Shown here piece after piece: positions 555 to 8,508 of a stretch of 64,000 nt of DNA; positions within the stretch are counted from its first letter, which is position 1; every line of letters starts with the position of its first letter. The DNA is from Marinobacter qingdaonensis (lineage in GTDB: Bacteria; Pseudomonadota; Gammaproteobacteria; Pseudomonadales; Oleiphilaceae). The notes beneath the pieces were generated by a model, which was given only the letters and a program-made list of their open reading frames with translations, ran no database searches and was not told where the DNA came from. The position numbers were made by a program, and so were the translations under genes. The DNA lies in NCBI RefSeq assembly GCF_034555935.1, contig NZ_JAYDCJ010000001.1, positions 310,001 through 374,000 of the forward strand, read 5' to 3'.

Positions 555-2507
555 TCAGGACTCAAGACGCCGGGGCCGTTCCGGGGACTGCACCGAGGCA
601 GGCGTCCCCGCCCCCGGCGCCCCGCCGGAGTTCATGCGCACCAAGGGCCCGGACACGGTCACCCCACTGGGGTCCACCTTCACAAAGCTGCCGCCCGCCA
701 CCAGACTCACCTCGGCGCCGGCCTCAATCACGACCTTCAGGCCGGCTTTGTGGTGAATCTCCTGCCCGGCTTCAATCAGTTGCGCCCTACCCTGGTACCC
801 GCGAAAACTCCCGCCCACGGCGTGACTGCAATCACCGCCCACCGACTCCCGGTGTCCGCCGTCCACCGTGTGATGGGCGTTACCCAAAACCCGCTCGACG
901 CAGTCGTTGCCGATCGTGAGGTGGCTGTCGTTCCGGATCACCTCGGTGCGGTTGTGCTCGGTCAGCAGGTCCAGGTTTCTCTGGGCGTGGACGTAGACCC
1001 GTTCCTGCCCGGCCTCGTCCTCGAAGCGCAGCTCGTTGCTGCCCTCGCCCTTGTGGGTTTGGGTTTTCAGGGTGGTGCGGGTCTTGTGTTCGGGCAGGGC
1101 GTACGGCGGTTGGTTGGTGGCGTGATGGGTGCGCCCGGTGATGATCGGCTGGTCCGGGTCGCCGTCGAGGAAGGACACAATCACCTCGTGCCCGATGCGC
1201 GGCAGCGCCATGAAGCCATACTGGCCACCGGCCCAGCCCTGGCTGACCCGCAGCCAGGCGCTGCTGTGTTCGTCGTTCTGGCTGTAGCGGTCCCAGGGGA
1301 AGCGCACCTTGACCCGGCCGTACTGGTCGCAATGGATTTCCTCGCCCTCCGGGCCGGTAACGATTGCGATCTGTGGGCCTTCCATGCGCGGGCGATGGGG
1401 GCACAGAGGGCGCCAGGTCTGGCTGGCCGGAATGGCGCTGAAATGGTTGTGGTAGTGGGTAGGCTCGGCCCCACCCTCTTCTTCCAGGGCCTGGGGTTGC
1501 CGGCCCAGATGGGTGACGGATGTGAGCAGCCAGGGCCGGTTCAACGCATCTTGATCGTGATCGGTGAGGTCGACCCTGGCACCGGCACTGAAGTCGGGAC
1601 GGTTGCTCTCGCCCTGGGCGGTACTGGCGTCGTTGCGCGAGGCCTCGAGGCGAGCCTGGGTAAACGGCTGGCCGCTGGCATCGGCCTTGAACCGGCCGGG
1701 GTAATCGAAGTGCTGGTAATCGTCCCGCTGGTTGGACGTGCTCGCGCCCTGCTCGTGCATCAGGGCGTAGGCCGGGTTCCGGAAGGTGTAATCCTTCAGC
1801 GCCACCGAGGCGGCCCGCACCCGCTCCTGCACGCGCAGCCGGAACACCGACGGTTGCCGGTGACTGCCGCCGGCCGTGGCGTTGTAGGCCACCGGATCGA
1901 GCGTGGGGGCATCGCCGTGGTGATCGGCAAAGATCAGGGCCGGAGGCTCGGAACCGTCGGCACTTCCATGACGATAGCGGTAATGCCAGCCCTCTTCCGC
2001 CGCCAGCCGTTCCACAAACGCCAGGTCGGTTTCCCGGTGCTGGACGCAATACTCCCGCACCTGGGACGGCCGCTTCAGCTCAAACACCGTCTCCACGATG
2101 CCGCGCTCTTCCAGCAGGGTGCGGATCATGGCCTCAGTGCCCAGGCCCTGGAAAATCCGGCTGTTGTACATCAGCCCCAATCGCCACAGCGGCGGCTGGA
2201 TCACCAGTTCGTAGCGGGTGCGGCGATGGCCGGCGTCGCCACGGGCGGCCTCGCTGACCACGCCGCTGAACCGGCGCAGGGGGACACCGTCCTGCCAGAT
2301 CAACAGCTCCACCGGCTGTTCCAGCAAGCGGCCAACATCCACATGAGGGTCAACACTGGCCAGCTCCAGCCGGCCCTGACAGAGTTCGGAGAGGCCTTCG
2401 GTCAGCGCAAAGCCAACCACGGCGAACAAATCCTGGGGGTGCTCACCGACACGGACGGTGAACTGCAATCCACTTGCCTGGGGCATGCTTTCAATCCTTT
2501 GAAGCAT
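555..2507 (-). CDS. vgrG: Type VI secretion system tip protein VgrG (TssI)
   Basis: The 650-residue product is a complete VgrG spike protein, which trimerises at the tip of the type VI secretion tube. The N-terminal gp27-like part (about residues 1-380) contains the family's 'YCVQHRETDLAFVERLAAEEG' region and a tyrosine/histidine-rich stretch. The gp5-like OB fold follows ('GRVKVRFPWDR', then 'SAWLRVSQGWAGGQYG' and 'PRIGHEVIVSFLDGDPDQP'). The C-terminal beta-helix has repeated short motifs such as 'VGGDCSHAVGGS'. There is no extra C-terminal effector domain. A GTG at 2522 is in frame, but I prefer the ATG at 2507, which has GGTGGG upstream. No other tss genes are visible, so this is an orphan or auxiliary vgrG. 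Its start faces the attC cassette cluster. Confidence 0.93.
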   Translation of the reverse strand: MLQRIESMPQASGLQFTVRVGEHPQDLFAVVGFALTEGLSELCQGRLELASVDPHVDVGRLLEQPVELLIWQDGVPLRRFSGVVSEAARGDAGHRRTRYELVIQPPLWRLGLMYNSRIFQGLGTEAMIRTLLEERGIVETVFELKRPSQVREYCVQHRETDLAFVERLAAEEGWHYRYRHGSADGSEPPALIFADHHGDAPTLDPVAYNATAGGSHRQPSVFRLRVQERVRAASVALKDYTFRNPAYALMHEQGASTSNQRDDYQHFDYPGRFKADASGQPFTQARLEASRNDASTAQGESNRPDFSAGARVDLTDHDQDALNRPWLLTSVTHLGRQPQALEEEGGAEPTHYHNHFSAIPASQTWRPLCPHRPRMEGPQIAIVTGPEGEEIHCDQYGRVKVRFPWDRYSQNDEHSSAWLRVSQGWAGGQYGFMALPRIGHEVIVSFLDGDPDQPIITGRTHHATNQPPYALPEHKTRTTLKTQTHKGEGSNELRFEDEAGQERVYVHAQRNLDLLTEHNRTEVIRNDSHLTIGNDCVERVLGNAHHTVDGGHRESVGGDCSHAVGGSFRGYQGRAQLIEAGQEIHHKAGLKVVIEAGAEVSLVAGGSFVKVDPSGVTVSGPLVRMNSGGAPGAGTPASVQSPERPRRLES

Positions 2508-2699
2508 TGGTGATGTACCCACCGGCTAAAGCGCAGCAGTCGATCCTCGACTAATCTACCCGGTGAGGTTGAGGTGAAAACTACCAGTGCGGAAGTGCTG
2601 AATCAACGCGTCGGGACTGAAGTTGCGGACTGAGTAGTGTTGGGGGCTAGAGTTATACGAACGGGTTCGCTGAATACACTGTTAAAACGTCAGGTGAGT

Positions 2700-2915
2700 A
2701 TGGAGAGCGAACCCAACAAAAGGAAGACGATGCTGGCTAACCGAGTCCTATTGGCCTCTGGAGTTGTCTTTGCATCGAGTGTCCTACTCTTTGTCGCTGC
2801 TCATCATGCTGGGCTGGACCAACCTTCTGCCTTCGGGCCAAGAATTGGCATCGCTATAGTTGGAGGCATAGCTCTGATGGTCGATCGTATTTATGTCGCG
2901 AGATATCGCCGGTAG
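2700..2915 (+). CDS. Integron cassette protein A, small two-helix membrane protein
   Basis: A 71-residue protein starting at the ATG at 2700 (AGGTG just upstream). A longer in-frame reading from 2637 would cross the probable left cassette boundary at 2652-2658, so I reject it. After a charged N-terminus (ESEPNKRK) come two hydrophobic segments, about residues 13-31 and 44-58, and a short basic tail (YVARYRR), which suggests a bitopic inner-membrane hairpin. I do not recognise a family. It is the first cassette of the array and is followed 15 bp later by attC1. AT-rich codon use fits recent acquisition. Confidence 0.6.
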   Translation: MESEPNKRKTMLANRVLLASGVVFASSVLLFVAAHHAGLDQPSAFGPRIGIAIVGGIALMVDRIYVARYRR

Positions 2916-2930
2916 CTAAGCCGTGAACTG

Positions 2931-3029
2931 TTTTAACAAGGCCATCAAATTTGTTGCAGCGACGAAAAGCGTGGCTTCCACTGGACTGCCTACGCGTTGC
3001 TTCGGCAGCCGTTTATGGCGGCGTTATGA
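2931..3029 (+). repeat. attC site 1
   Basis: The site is about 99 bp. The left box is TTTTAAC (2931-2937) and the right box is GTTATGA (3023-3029). Just inside, GCCAT (2941-2945) pairs with ATGGC (3015-3019). The layout matches attC recombination sites that fold as bottom-strand hairpins; the outer boxes deviate from the RYYYAAC/GTTRRRY consensus at one or two positions. Confidence 0.65.
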
Positions 3030-3044
3030 AGGGAAAATGGAATT

Positions 3045-3374
3045 ATGCCCAAGTTACGAGTAGCTGCCTTTTCCATCCTCTTTTTCGGCGGAGCGTTCTC
3101 GGCAGTCTCCCTAATGTTCTATTTTGGGGATTGGCAAAGGCTGGCCTTGGTTGGTTCCGCTGGGGTGTCTGTGGGCTTAGTTGCAGCACCGACCATTGAG
3201 CCAAAGTTGTTCAAGCCCCCCTGGGCTTATGAGTTGATTTTCGGGGCTCTGGCAGGAGCGATGCTGGGGTTAGAATTTGGAGTCGGAGCGGAAGCCGCAG
3301 GCATTGGGGCTTTATTGGGTGGGGTTCTTGGTTATCTTGCGCCATATTGGATCAAGCATGTAACAATCCCCTAA
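3045..3374 (+). CDS. Integron cassette protein B, small membrane protein
   Basis: A 109-residue hydrophobic protein. The ATG at 3045 lies 16 bp after attC1 and has GAAGGG upstream at usable spacing. Predicted membrane segments are at about residues 5-25, 33-50 and 62-98; the last is a long glycine/alanine-rich hydrophobic stretch (GALAGAMLGLEFG, then GIGALLGGVLGYL) that could make two helices. No conserved polar catalytic motif is visible and I do not recognise the family. It is followed three bases after the stop by attC2. Confidence 0.6.
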   Translation: MPKLRVAAFSILFFGGAFSAVSLMFYFGDWQRLALVGSAGVSVGLVAAPTIEPKLFKPPWAYELIFGALAGAMLGLEFGVGAEAAGIGALLGGVLGYLAPYWIKHVTIP

Positions 3375-3377
3375 AAC

Positions 3378-3461
3378 TCATAACAAGGCCAGGAACGGGG
3401 ACCGCTTTTTAATTGCGTCTTCGCCTGTACTGCAAAGCTGCGCATGCTGGCGGCGTTAAGT
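3378..3461 (+). repeat. attC site 2
   Basis: The site is 84 bp. The left box is TCATAAC (3378-3384) and the right box GTTAAGT (3455-3461) matches GTTRRRY exactly. The internal arms GCCAG (3388-3392) and CTGGC (3447-3451) are complementary. It starts three bases after the stop of cassette gene B. Confidence 0.75.
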
Positions 3462-3487
3462 ATTCTGGACACACGGAGGTTTAGCAT

Positions 3488-3775
3488 TTGAAGTCATGGG
3501 CATACTCACTATTAATCGCTGGTTTAGCGGGGGTGTTTGTCTCGGTGCTGGTGCTCGAAAAGAAACTACCGAGCCAAGCCTATGGAGTATCTTCCGGCTG
3601 GCTAACCTTCATCATCGTGGGGGCTCTCTGGCTTTCTTATCTCAGGCTATTTATACCTCGATGCCCCAAATGTGGTTTGGGCGTTTTTTCCATTATAGAA
3701 ATTGCCAAGTTCCCCATCATCGTTAAATCCTGGGTTAGCGCTAAGTGTTTTAAATGCGGAGAAAAACTAGAATGA
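3488..3775 (+). CDS. Integron cassette protein C, two TM segments plus zinc ribbon
   Basis: A 95-residue protein beginning with TTG at 3488, supported by GGAGGT at 3475-3480. Two membrane segments (about residues 5-22 and 37-55) are followed by a cytoplasmic C-terminus with CPKC and CFKC pairs separated by 24 residues, a zinc-ribbon arrangement. The fold is inferred from cysteine spacing and function is unknown. Cassette product E has the same architecture with a different sequence. The gene ends four bases before attC3. Confidence 0.65.
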   Translation: MKSWAYSLLIAGLAGVFVSVLVLEKKLPSQAYGVSSGWLTFIIVGALWLSYLRLFIPRCPKCGLGVFSIIEIAKFPIIVKSWVSAKCFKCGEKLE

Positions 3776-3779
3776 AAAA

Positions 3780-3851
3780 ACTTAACAATGTGGTCAACGG
3801 GACGCCAACTACGATGCGCTCCGTTGGCGCTCATTACCACTGGCGTTATAA
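3780..3851 (+). repeat. attC site 3
   Basis: This is the most regular site, 72 bp. The left box ACTTAAC (3780-3786) fits RYYYAAC exactly and the right box is GTTATAA (3845-3851). Two nested arms pair: GTGGT (3790-3794) with ACCAC (3836-3840), and GCCAAC (3804-3809) with GTTGGC (3823-3828), leaving unpaired bases between them as expected for attC hairpins. Confidence 0.8.
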
Positions 3852-3853
3852 CT

Positions 3854-4330
3854 ATGGGTAACAGGCATCTTCGAGGGCTGGGCTTTAAAGCGCCGGAAGT
3901 ATTTCGAAAATCTGAGGTAGCGATAAATCAGCTTACCCAGGCTATCGAGCTATTCTTGCAAGAAAATTTTATTTGCAGTCTCACGCTCGCTGGCGCAGCA
4001 GATGCAATTCTTGCAGGACTTCTCGAGAGTGAAGGGCAGCAGCCATCTCACGAAGTTTCTTATGATCTACTAAGAACCTTTAGGGCAGTTTTGGATCTCG
4101 ATCCTGCAATCGATCAACAATCCAAAGGGTCGATTTTTAAGGCCTGGAACAGCGGCAGAAATAAACTAAAACACCACGATCCGAGTGATGAGATTGAGTT
4201 CGAGATGAACGACTGCGACGAAGCGTACTGGATGATTCGTCGAGCTTTGAGGAATGCAGCTGCTTTAAAATTGGACGTTCGGAATAAGGTCCAATTCGAC
4301 ACTTGGGTACAGGGAAATCAAAAGCTATAA
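3854..4330 (+). CDS. Integron cassette protein D, HEPN-like
   Basis: A 158-residue mostly helical protein. A longer reading from 3788 would lie inside attC3, so the ATG at 3854, two bases after the site, is the likely start; it leaves almost no leader, as is common for cassettes. The segment CSLTLAGAADAIL (about 41-53) and the later GRNKLKHHDPSD (101-112) give an R-x4-H motif (Arg102, His107) of the kind found in HEPN ribonucleases and their relatives. HEPN proteins often act as RNA-cutting toxins or defence effectors; whether this one is catalytic is unknown, and no antitoxin gene overlaps it. The stop codon lies inside the left box of attC4. Confidence 0.65.
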   Translation: MGNRHLRGLGFKAPEVFRKSEVAINQLTQAIELFLQENFICSLTLAGAADAILAGLLESEGQQPSHEVSYDLLRTFRAVLDLDPAIDQQSKGSIFKAWNSGRNKLKHHDPSDEIEFEMNDCDEAYWMIRRALRNAAALKLDVRNKVQFDTWVQGNQKL

Positions 4331-4423
4331 CAAGTTATTGCAGTTCGTTCCGGCCCTAACGGCCCTCCACCGGATGCCCTTTTCGCTGCGCTACAAGGGC
4401 ACCGCTGAATAAAAGCGTTACGG
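4325..4423 (+). repeat. attC site 4
   Basis: The site is 99 bp. The left box CTATAAC (4325-4331) contains the stop codon of cassette gene D; the right box is GTTACGG (4417-4423). TTATT-G-CAG (4335-4343) pairs with CTGAATAA (4405-4412), leaving G4340 bulged, which resembles the extrahelical bases that set strand choice in attC sites. GCCCTT/AAGGGC arms pair further in. Confidence 0.75.
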
Positions 4424-4427
4424 AATC

Positions 4428-4715
4428 ATGAATATTCGACTTAGAAGTTTTGCGGTTGCTTTCGGTCTAGCTCCGGTAGTAATCGCTCCGCAGCTTATTG
4501 TGATTGAGCTCTGCGAGTATTTTCAGGTCGTTTGGCCCATGTTCGTCATGATTCCTTTGGTGGCTTTGGTTTTTGGTCTAGGTTGGGTGCACTGCATCAC
4601 TGGCATGAAGTGCAAAGTATGCCATGGGCATTACGGGGTTTCTTTCAGCTTTATCAGGGCCTTGTCGATCCCAGAAAAATGTATGAATTGTGGTGCACAT
4701 GCCGGCATCGCATAA
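4428..4715 (+). CDS. Integron cassette protein E, two TM segments plus zinc ribbon
   Basis: A 95-residue protein whose ATG at 4428 follows attC4 by four bases. Two hydrophobic segments (about residues 8-28 and 36-57) precede a C-terminal domain with CKVC and CMNC pairs 19 residues apart, a probable zinc ribbon. The overall plan copies cassette product C, but the residues do not align well, so either common design or distant homology is possible. The stop lies inside a GCATAAC box that looks like the left end of a fifth attC. Confidence 0.65.
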   Translation: MNIRLRSFAVAFGLAPVVIAPQLIVIELCEYFQVVWPMFVMIPLVALVFGLGWVHCITGMKCKVCHGHYGVSFSFIRALSIPEKCMNCGAHAGIA

Positions 4716-4731
4716 CAGTGCACTGTTGACG
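4710..4731 (+). repeat. Collapsed attC remnant (right edge of cassette cluster)
   Basis: GCATAAC (4710-4716) overlaps the stop of cassette gene E exactly as in attC4. Only eight bases separate it from GTTGACG (4725-4731). The centre, AACAGTGCACTGTT (4714-4727), is a perfect 14-bp palindrome. It looks like an attC whose central stem has been deleted so that the two outer boxes are nearly fused. This is an interpretation of one short site. Confidence 0.4.
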
Positions 4732-4760
4732 GTAAGCTTTGGCTTGATCCACAGGTGAAA

Positions 4761-5150
4761 ATGGAGAAATCTCACTGGTCTGAGCTCATGGAAGATGGTG
4801 AAACTCGTCTGCAGATTAATCTTTACCAGTATCTGCATCTGAGAATTCTCACGAGAACGACAAGCCGCATACAGAAGCGGCGGGTCTCTCGCAGTAGCTT
4901 TCGCGGCAAGATCATTTGGGGCGCTTTTGAAGCTCTAAAGGCAGCCGGCAAGATCACATCACCTAGGGCAATGAGGATTTTCTGGTTCTGGGTCGATGCT
5001 AGGTGGGTTTTAGCCGGACTTGAGAAGAAAAAGTTGGGAATAAACGCTTACGAGTTTCGGTTTATCCGGAAAAAGCATCTGAACCCTCAAGACATAAAAA
5101 TGAACTTCCAGGATTACAGGGCGGTTCATCAGATTCGAAATTCCATATAG
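4761..5150 (+). CDS. Hypothetical basic protein F
   Basis: A 129-residue protein from the ATG at 4761 (AGGTG upstream; an in-frame GTG at 4755 is the alternative). It is strongly basic in the middle (RTTSRIQKRRVSRSSFRGK) and tryptophan-rich around IFWFWVDARW, with no signal peptide or clear membrane segment. I recognise no family. Its AT-rich composition matches the cassettes on its left. No full attC follows it, so it may be a cassette whose site has decayed or a separate acquisition. A weak TCAGC/GCTGA stem followed by GTTTTATT about 20 bases after the stop could be a terminator. Confidence 0.5.
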   Translation: MEKSHWSELMEDGETRLQINLYQYLHLRILTRTTSRIQKRRVSRSSFRGKIIWGAFEALKAAGKITSPRAMRIFWFWVDARWVLAGLEKKKLGINAYEFRFIRKKHLNPQDIKMNFQDYRAVHQIRNSI

Positions 5151-5284
5151 CAAGATTTGCGACCATCAGCTTTCCTTTTTTGCTGAGTTTTATTCAAAAC
5201 AACTTTGCGCTGTAGTCCATGGTCGACGACCGCCGGACGCCCAACTTATCGTGGCTTCCCTTTACAGCTATACGAGACCAAGAC

Positions 5285-5785
5285 ATGAATCTCACAATCC
5301 GCACGGAAACACCGCAGGATGCGGAACACATCCACACCGTCACCGAACAGGCGTTCCAAAACGCCCCCCATACCGATCACACCGAGCAGTTCATCGTTCA
5401 GGCGCTTCGGAAGTCTGACGCACTGACTGTCTCCCTGGTGGCCGAATCCGATGGGAAGATCATCGGCCATGTGGCGATCTCGCCGGTGCGCATTTCCGAC
5501 GGTGCGGCCCACTGGTTCGGGCTGGGGCCGATGTCCGTGCTGCCGGCGTACCAGGGCCAGGGCGTGGGCTCTCAACTGATGAAACGAGCGCTTGCCGATC
5601 TTGATGCCAAGGGGGCCTCGGGCTGTGTCCTGCTGGGCGATCCCCATTACTACGGGCGCTTTGGCTTCAAGGTCGTCGAGGGGCTGGTTTTCCCTGGGGT
5701 GCCCGCCGAATACTTCCAGGCCGTGTCCTTCGGCGTGGCGTTTCCCCAGGGCGAGGTGACCTACCATGACGCCTTTTCAGCCTAG
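5285..5785 (+). CDS. GNAT family N-acetyltransferase (YhbS-like)
   Basis: The 166-residue product is a GNAT acetyltransferase of the YhbS type, which moves an acetyl group from acetyl-CoA to an unidentified amine. Visible features are the N-terminal 'IRTETPQDAEHI', the beta4 strand 'GLGPMSVLPAYQGQGVGSQLM' (abridged here; the Q-G-Q-G-V-G acetyl-CoA loop is clear) and 'LLGDPHYYGRFGFK', which is characteristic of this subgroup. An in-frame ATG at 5219 would add 22 residues with no similarity to the family, so I chose the ATG at 5285. GC content is back to the chromosomal level, so it marks the right flank of the cassette island. Confidence 0.85.
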   Translation: MNLTIRTETPQDAEHIHTVTEQAFQNAPHTDHTEQFIVQALRKSDALTVSLVAESDGKIIGHVAISPVRISDGAAHWFGLGPMSVLPAYQGQGVGSQLMKRALADLDAKGASGCVLLGDPHYYGRFGFKVVEGLVFPGVPAEYFQAVSFGVAFPQGEVTYHDAFSA

Positions 5786-5801
5786 CGCCGCTCGATAGAC
5801 T

Positions 5802-6095
5802 ATGGACGACAAGCTAACCCTGCTCCCCCCGCACATGCCCGGCGAACCACCACCGCCGGGCGCCGTGCTTGCGGATGCCAGCAAGCTCGCCCACATCAAC
5901 ACCTACGGCGATCTGCCCCGCTGGTACCGGGATTACCCGTTCATCTGCCTCGACTGCGGCGCGGCGCAGACCTGGACCGCGGAACAGCAGAAGTGGTACT
6001 ACGAGGAAGCAAAGGGCCATCTCTGGGCGGTGGCGGTCCGTTGCCGGCCCTGCCGCCAGCGGCGCAAGCAGGGCGACCATCAAAACGACGACTGA
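5802..6095 (+). CDS. Zinc-ribbon domain protein (zf-trcl type)
   Basis: A 97-residue soluble protein with the conserved layout of the small 'probable zinc ribbon' (zf-trcl) family. 'YRDYPFICLDCGAAQTWTAEQQKWYYEEAKG' is the family signature (positions about 42-72) and 'RCRPCRQRRK' follows, giving two CxxC pairs (Cys50/Cys53, Cys80/Cys83 approximately). The N-terminus is proline-rich. No biochemical role is established for the family. It starts 16 bp after the GNAT gene on the same strand and could be co-transcribed with it. Confidence 0.8.
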   Translation: MDDKLTLLPPHMPGEPPPPGAVLADASKLAHINTYGDLPRWYRDYPFICLDCGAAQTWTAEQQKWYYEEAKGHLWAVAVRCRPCRQRRKQGDHQNDD

Positions 6096-6505
6096 CCCAT
6101 CGCCGCAACTGGCCCCGACAATGCCGCCACTCATACCCTGGGCTCCATCACCGCTCAGCCGCGCCAAAACGACCGCAGCCGGCGTACTACGGCGCGTACC
6201 AGATCCCGACGGGCCCGACGCTGATCCTGCCTCACCCGTTCAAGGTTGATGCCCCCTCGCCCATTCCGGTACCTGCGCGGAATGGACTCCGGCCGTGGTT
6301 GATAGGCTCCACCGCCCTCGTTCCCGTTGCCATCGCGACGGGCTACGGCGGTGCCGGTGTAGTAGGTGTGTGCGTGTCCTGAATAGATCATGTCTTTAAC
6401 CTCCATTCCGCCGCCCGGGTTGTGGGGCTTGGGTATCTCATGGCTTCAGGAACATGCTAGTTTTGTTCTATCGTGCAAACTATTCCAAAAGAGTGAATAA
6501 GAACT
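6096..6505 (+). other. 410-bp gap with a possible decayed gene divergent from LysR
   Basis: I see no convincing gene. On the minus strand an ATG at 6391 has an excellent GGAGGT seven bases upstream. It opens about 79 codons ending at 6155, whose second half becomes arginine-rich and unlike a real protein. Other frames are broken by stops. The position, divergent from a LysR gene, is where a regulated target would be expected, so this may be a frameshifted remnant. The last 70 bases before 6506 are AT-rich and should hold the lysR promoter. Confidence 0.35.
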
Positions 6506-8124: not shown

Positions 8125-8508
8125 GTGAGCGTGCAACTGAACCACACCATTGTCTGGTGCCACGACAAGCACAGGTCCGCCAACTTCCTCACAGGCCTGC
8201 TGGGACTCGACAGCCCCACCCCGTTCGGGCCCTTCCTTGTGGTCGAGCTAAGCAACGGGGTTTCCCTGGATTACTACGAAACCGGGCGCGAGATCGCATC
8301 CCAGCATTACGCGTTCCTGATCAGCGAGCCGGAATTCGATGAGATCTTCGGACGCATCCGCGACCAGGGCATCGCCTACTGGGCCGATCCGGGCAAGCAG
8401 AAGCCCAACGAGATTAACCGGCACGACGGCAGCCGCGGACTGTATTTTGACGACCCCGATGGGCATTTCCTGGAGATCATCACCCGCCCCTATGGCAGTG
8501 GTGGCTGA
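8125..8508 (+). CDS. VOC superfamily (glyoxalase-like) protein
   Basis: The 127-residue product belongs to the vicinal oxygen chelate superfamily. It has the paired beta-alpha-beta-beta-beta modules: 'NHTIVWCHDKHRSANFLTGLLGL' at the N-terminus and 'GLYFDDPDGHFLEIITRPY' at the C-terminus, where the final Glu is the usual metal ligand. The histidine in 'LNHTIVW' would be another ligand. Substrate unknown; such proteins include dioxygenases, resistance proteins and glyoxalases. The GTG at 8125 is chosen over 8092 because a strong GGAGGT lies at 8112-8117. Confidence 0.85.
   Translation: MSVQLNHTIVWCHDKHRSANFLTGLLGLDSPTPFGPFLVVELSNGVSLDYYETGREIASQHYAFLISEPEFDEIFGRIRDQGIAYWADPGKQKPNEINRHDGSRGLYFDDPDGHFLEIITRPYGSGG

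Follow-up and report, generated by a model that had tools for sequence, protein, structure and literature searches.

In the usual account an integron has a single integrase and, typically, one adjoining attI site, and integrase-less cassette arrays are usually ascribed to decay or to insertion at an arbitrary site. In a stretch of 64,000 nucleotides (nt) from Marinobacter qingdaonensis (assembly GCF_034555935.1, contig NZ_JAYDCJ010000001.1, positions 310,001 to 374,000; here called the window), positions 2649-4717, next to the type VI spike gene vgrG, probably constitute an integron cassette array standing at an attI site that lacks an integrase gene (intI), hereafter a dock, and this dock would be one of a dispersed set. 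The comparison of Marinobacter genomes establishes the attC sites, the homology of the attI, the spacing within the module that contains it, its dispersal, the one-sided placement of attC, the turnover of cassettes and the presence of one cassette at two docks. An earlier note on this DNA had placed an integron cassette cluster at 2652-4731, and these limits lie near those found here (attI core at 2656-2684, end of the last detectable attC at 4423, end of the last gene at 4715).

Since nothing in the window attained the gathering score of any Rfam family, we built our own attC model, a covariance model of 72 positions and 15 base pairs derived from 19 attC sites in the arrays of other genomes; these training sites follow an attI core at loci that carry intI, in some cases a partial one, and the sites of the window were not included. 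When both strands of the window were searched at E<=10, exactly four matches were obtained, all of them full length and on the plus strand, namely attC 1 at 2931..3029 (54.7 bits, E 5.5e-12), attC 2 at 3378..3461 (37.9 bits, E 1.6e-7), attC 3 at 3780..3851 (53.4 bits, E 1.2e-11) and attC 4 at 4325..4423 (45.7 bits, E 1.3e-9). The cassette cluster proposed in the earlier note is thus borne out, and the lack of any attC model hit, which the note had named as evidence to the contrary, is not what was seen at the four sites (E 5.5e-12 to 1.6e-7). Its statement that every gene is followed by an attC holds for four of the five genes and fails for the fifth (4428-4715), behind which none is detectable. 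Both attC 1 and attC 3 have close relatives in the training set (93% over 94 nt and 94% over 70 nt, respectively, the latter being the site of the intI-bearing locus L024); attC 1 is also 91% identical over 101 nt to the training-set attC at L269, beside the partial intI of genome G091, and attC 3 is 97% identical over 66 nt to a site at L238. The alignments of attC 2 and attC 4 to training sites span 39 nt at most. Base-pair counts are strong in the training alignment, and because the 19 sites had been pre-selected for complementary arms, these counts are not independent proof of structure. Folding of seven single strands gave z values from -2.06 to +0.89, with no consistent signal. In a set meant as a control, 56 loci out of a collection of 80, the model gave 70 matches, all on one strand; this set contains real arrays and is not a clean negative control. 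A home-made attC scorer, which listed three of the four sites, left attC 3 unlisted and scored the weakest within the range of shuffled sequences, was replaced by the covariance model. Two stretches that by eye resembled decayed attC sites, one between the genes orf131 and GNAT to the right of the array and one behind a higBA pair elsewhere in the genome (L009), gave no match to the model.

The left edge of the array, judged by its sequence, is an attI homologue at the array head, located at 2649..2684 on the plus strand and composed of GAGTTATACGAACGGGTTCG followed by CTGAATACACTGTTA, with the core match at 2656-2684. It is 91% identical over 33 nt to the attI adjoining intI in G008 (L026), and crossover is expected between the G and the TTA at 2681/2682. 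In the 5' flank of vgrG of seven species the cassettes begin at near-identical sequence, close to TTATACGAACGNGTTCGYTGAATACNCTGTTA, and a closely similar sequence sits between intI and the first cassette at intI-bearing loci. Copies with and without an adjacent intI have in common a module of about 277 base pairs (bp), which has the palindrome GGAGTTATACGAACGCGTTCGCAAAACTCC at its left end, a central inverted repeat and, at its right end, the attI core. The two palindromic elements are spaced 265-290 bp apart in all 23 intI-adjacent copies; the second is present in 70 of 96 orphans (attI copies away from any intI match, defined below), at 266-275 bp in 64 of these 70, and module conservation spans 64 orphan and 22 intI-adjacent copies. 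Left of the palindrome, intI loci continue with a conserved stretch, which we take to resemble a LexA box, and the integrase gene; copies without intI have little in common there. In the window the two repeats are reduced to one, with about 240 bp deleted relative to G003 (alignment with L129), and the attI core is intact. The palindrome is a low-copy element, with 36 matches in six of eight genomes, nearly all at attI modules; away from these modules there was one match each in G005 and G007, and a reversed-pattern control gave one in G029. This low copy number rules out a high-copy repeat. Signs of a miniature inverted-repeat transposable element or of an integron mobilisation unit were sought by eye at one context (context 2), where there was no clean target duplication, and at one context comparison with an empty site did not delimit an insertion cleanly. 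At nrdB-side loci the left palindrome often starts within about 20 bp of the apparent preceding stop codon (by eye), a closeness that may bear on termination or on the module boundary. It was also observed that several attI, with and without intI (L027, L037, L214, L230, L252), precede a similar sequence start, like AGCGGTGGGTGAGGGTGCA in L027 and L037; for L214, L230 and L252 the similarity was judged on the first bases only.

The attI core was then searched as a degenerate pattern, TACGAACGNGTTCGNNNAATNNNCTGTTA, with up to two mismatches in 124 Marinobacter genomes. The search yielded 129 matches in 70 of the 124 genomes, and the reversed pattern none. Of these matches 33 lie within 1.5 kilobases (kb) of an intI match and 96 do not; the latter are the orphans, which are spread over 61 genomes; in 24 of these genomes both kinds occur together. 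An intI match is present somewhere in 46 of the 61 orphan-bearing genomes, and the remaining 15, our own genome included, have none at E 1e-40. All of these attI counts are lower bounds, since the pattern missed the vgrG dock of G060. Clustered by their upstream proteins, the orphans fall into 23 clusters, the largest having 17, 17, 7, 6 and 6 members; context 19 repeats the gene of context 2 and loci L211 and L234 are short of upstream sequence, so the clusters overcount and correspond to about 20 gene contexts. The vgrG context has six members by the pattern and seven with G060, and G056 carries four orphan attI in addition to its intI-adjacent one. The genus has two native intI loci, one near nrdB (ribonucleotide reductase small subunit, by Pfam), with 41 of 113 intI matches within 5 kb of that gene, and one near a pterin dehydratase gene, accounting for 35 of the 70 intI loci that were read. 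Beyond the genus, attI was found in three of 39 other genomes of the family, and at up to one mismatch in 0 of 374 other genomes in an order sample of 390; the attI region gave no match on plasmids, and the exact pattern was absent from viral contigs.

The dispersed docks are largely loaded with cassettes. Around 90 orphan attI the attC model found 207 attC sites at E<=0.01, every one of them on the array side and oriented like the array; the six further orphans of the 96 were searched with the model separately. At least one attC was present at 73 of the 90 docks; where the sequence extends 2.5 kb or more downstream (73 docks), 62 have one. Taken over the seven species, the vgrG dock carries 21 attC-closed cassettes (4, 1, 4, 5, 4, 1 and 2), and comparison of whole cassettes by tblastx at E 1e-4 gave no match between closed cassettes of different species. 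A gene order fixed at this locus in all relatives, which the earlier note had also named as evidence to the contrary, is not what was seen; the attC-closed cassettes differ among all seven species. Cassette 4 of the window recurs at an nrdB-side dock of G038 (L202), with 78% DNA identity over 577 nt, so that the same cassette occupies two different docks in two species. In 18 of the 24 genomes with both kinds of attI, at least one orphan has a 15-nt right half identical to that of the intI-adjacent attI. Within genomes, 40 of 76 attI pairs have identical 15-nt right halves, compared with a mean of 20.9 and a maximum of 34 in 5000 label shuffles, a test made on 45 genomes with two or more copies, in which the commonest variant made up 53 of 104 rows and relatedness was not controlled. 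Recent duplication of docks would yield the same right-half signal as action of an integrase in trans.

We searched the assembly (3,985,056 bases in 5 contigs, 99.9% complete) for an integrase with TIGR02249 at its cut-off of 265 bits. No match over the cut-off was obtained anywhere in it, the best reaching 83.6 bits, in agreement with the earlier report that no intI is in view. A weak match (E 3.6e-5) at C3:886196-886306 (L009:16197-16307), on the minus strand, has a translation resembling the IntI C-terminus and adjoins a HigB-like toxin gene and a helix-turn-helix gene; the attC model found no site at this stretch, which is a possible integrase relic. Three integrase-less remains are present in this genome, namely the vgrG dock with its four attC sites, an nrdB-side remain (L209/L273, C3:677156), where an attI core with two mismatches is followed by three attC at a native locus without intI, and a lone attC at C3:3000598-3000658 (L348), which lies close to a pterin dehydratase gene, where the genus has its other native integron locus. 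Across the genus, a TIGR02249 match at E 1e-40 or better was found in 94 of 124 genomes and a match over the cut-off in 84, which places our genome in a minority. Most simply, the lineage has probably lost its integrase, leaving its arrays frozen; for the array in the window, freezing is probable given the absence of any intI over the cut-off and the loss of about 240 bp from the module.

The array itself comprises five small genes in the same direction at 2700-4715, located 5' of a complete vgrG and divergent from it, with a GC content of 48.9%, below the 63.1% of the window and the 66.3% of vgrG, so that the AT-rich, unidirectional gene set described earlier stands. All five are on the plus strand. 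Cassette gene 1 (2700..2915) encodes 71 amino acids (aa), by eye a small hydrophobic protein without a family; scanned in a longer 92-aa reading (2637-2915), it gave sub-threshold Pfam and NCBIfam matches only. Cassette gene 2 (3045..3374, 109 aa) encodes by eye a glycine-rich, hydrophobic protein with no Pfam or NCBIfam family over the cut-off. Cassette genes 3 (3488..3775) and 5 (4428..4715) each encode 95 aa, hydrophobic and with two CxxC pairs by eye. Cassette gene 4 (3854..4330, 158 aa) has no family over the cut-off; at E 0.001 it matches 12 database relatives other than itself, of which 11 lie on contigs shorter than 5 kb. Behind cassette gene 5 there is a lone TAACA at 4713-4717, and the attC model, run with filters off over 4600-6100, detected no site either for this gene or for the GNAT gene further right; the attC of cassette gene 5 is lost or cut short. 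Small open frames in the one direction extend from 2700 to 5785, taking in orf131 (4755..5150, plus strand, 131 aa, no family), which given its 46% GC is perhaps a remnant of the right end of the array, and a GNAT acetyltransferase gene (5285..5785, plus strand, over the Pfam cut-off). In other genera, relatives of this GNAT gene are followed by an attC that begins a few bases past the stop codon (L045, L048, L056, L057, L059 and L065; attC at 8502), and the window copy may be an old cassette that has lost its attC. The GNAT acetyltransferase family is a cassette gene in several genera. Among the seven proteins of the array region, GNAT alone passes a Pfam cut-off and none matches a PADLOC family; for the five array genes nothing exceeded a Pfam or NCBIfam cut-off, as the earlier note had expected of products mostly without a known family. 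Seven cassette proteins from the vgrG docks of relatives included, by Pfam cut-offs, one AAA_21/AAA_15 ATPase and one GNAT. The neighbouring gene, at 555..2522 on the minus strand, is indeed a type VI spike gene, encoding 655 aa with the Pfam VgrG domains Phage_GPD, Gp5_trimer_C and Phage_base_V; its named relatives are mostly Marinobacter VgrG, the nearest being a Marinobacter sp. protein at 95% identity. It occupies the position that intI has in the ordinary integron of the genus, divergent from the array. Effector genes usually sit 3' of vgrG. The gene is a neighbour of the array and not its partner.

How the array came to be beside vgrG can be accounted for in several ways. On the reading we prefer, the module found between intI and its cassettes, about 277 bp long, would serve as a dock where it occurs without intI, at many chromosomal places; cassettes would have entered it by attC x attI recombination, catalysed in trans by an integron integrase whose gene lies at another locus. 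We infer this filling of docks in trans from the comparisons above. The wider proposal of a distributed integron, in which one integrase serves several dispersed attI docks, the module can move or be copied, cassettes are held in several contexts and docks outlive their integrase, seems to us evenly poised between holding and failing. Alternatively, a complete integron with intI, attI and array may once have stood beside vgrG and lost its intI by deletion, leaving a plain degraded integron of the kind called a CALIN (cluster of attC sites lacking integron-integrase). The nrdB locus does show both states, with 17 orphans in addition to its 41 of 113 intI matches, two orphans retain an intI stub of about 50 aa, and our own genome has lost intI elsewhere, as the nrdB attI with three attC and the lone attC beside the pterin dehydratase gene attest. 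However, vgrG adjoins none of the 70 intI loci read among the 113 matches (the 43 unread being 37 within 5 kb of nrdB and six others), the six vgrG docks tested (G060 not among them) keep no trace of intI between vgrG and attI, and the flanks of the 70 loci match only contexts 0, 4, 7, 12 and 17. Deletion of intI accounts for the nrdB and pterin dehydratase contexts and not obviously for the others, and for the vgrG dock we consider it possible but rather unlikely. Insertion at an arbitrary secondary genomic site of the attG type would likewise permit an integrase-less array (Loot et al. 2024, as cited in the available text of PMC12444791), but the boundary here is an attI homologue carrying the module of intI-adjacent attI, and near-identical boundaries serve seven species, which makes such an insertion very improbable. 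The position next to vgrG might also suggest a type VI cargo hotspot, with cassettes supplying effectors or immunity proteins to the neighbouring VgrG, and for small hydrophobic proteins an immunity role is conceivable in principle. The array, however, is 5' of vgrG and divergent from it, its five genes have no PADLOC, Pfam or NCBIfam family over the cut-off, and docks of the same kind are present in about 19 further contexts. We therefore give hardly any credence to this explanation, and the view of the vgrG neighbourhood as an effector-swapping hotspot, put forward as speculative in the earlier note, is not supported, with vgrG as one of about 20 contexts.

Several points weigh against the reading of the array as one of a dispersed set of docks filled in trans. 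All of its support is comparative, and no recombination was observed. Two of the contexts, nrdB and phhB-like, are also native homes of intI; they hold 17 and 6 orphans, respectively, some of which probably derive from loss of intI. No attC follows 11 of the 73 orphans whose downstream sequence extends 2.5 kb or more. Among the species with a vgrG dock, intI is full length elsewhere in G003, G008 and G060, partial in G091, and without a match at E 1e-40 in G000, G007 and G065. Simple scans show no promoter for cassette expression at the dock (none in L014 at 900-1600); a simple sigma-70 scan of 2400-5300 gave one match, inside the array, and shuffled sequences gave 2.8. Finally, three closed cassettes of the vgrG dock match by tblastx genes that in other species lie beyond the final attC; two of these matches are strong (cassette 1 of G060 with G003, cassette 2 of G065 with G060) and one is weak (cassette 3 of G091 with G065). 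Turnover is therefore not total; together with the differences among closed cassettes, these matches indicate that cassettes came and went and that some genes lost their attC.

Cassette-loaded attI copies dispersed in one genus suggest a third origin of integrase-less arrays and would explain their recurring positions, and docks remote from the integrase allow a direct test of their use by the native enzyme. Our searches of a collection of open-licence papers, with the available text of PMC12901181, PMC7923331, PMC9024848, PMC12444791 and PMC10295459, turned up no report of dispersed attI. There is a blind spot in the standard program, since IntegronFinder 2.0 does not detect attI, for want of good descriptions of it beyond class 1 (available text of PMC9024848). 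A published table gives Marinobacter sp. LQ44 both a CALIN and, apart from it, an In0, with no attI discussed in the available text (PMC10295459), and this fits an array lying away from its integrase. With the CALIN class of IntegronFinder, which requires at least two attC in a row and no intI nearby, the array in the window has in common several attC-closed cassettes (four attC within 2931-4423) and the lack of a nearby intI (no TIGR02249 match over the cut-off in the whole assembly), but it differs in beginning at an attI homologue, at a position common to several species. The Xanthomonas CALINs are similar in being integrase-less arrays at recurring conserved loci with progressive loss of integrase activity, and differ in that the available text makes no mention of dispersed attI copies (PMC12444791). 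Insertion at attG (Loot et al. 2024) also places chromosomal cassettes remote from an integrase; attG, however, is neither attI nor attC (available text of PMC12444791), whereas the site in the window is an attI homologue. Like a complete integron, the array is headed by an attI homologue, as far as its sequence tells, but it has no functional intI (best TIGR02249 match 83.6 against 265 bits). With the chromosomal integron of the genus, whose intI is near nrdB or the pterin dehydratase gene, it shares the attI core, the module and closely related attC sites, and it differs from that integron in lacking intI and the LexA-box-like stretch and in having vgrG in the place of intI.

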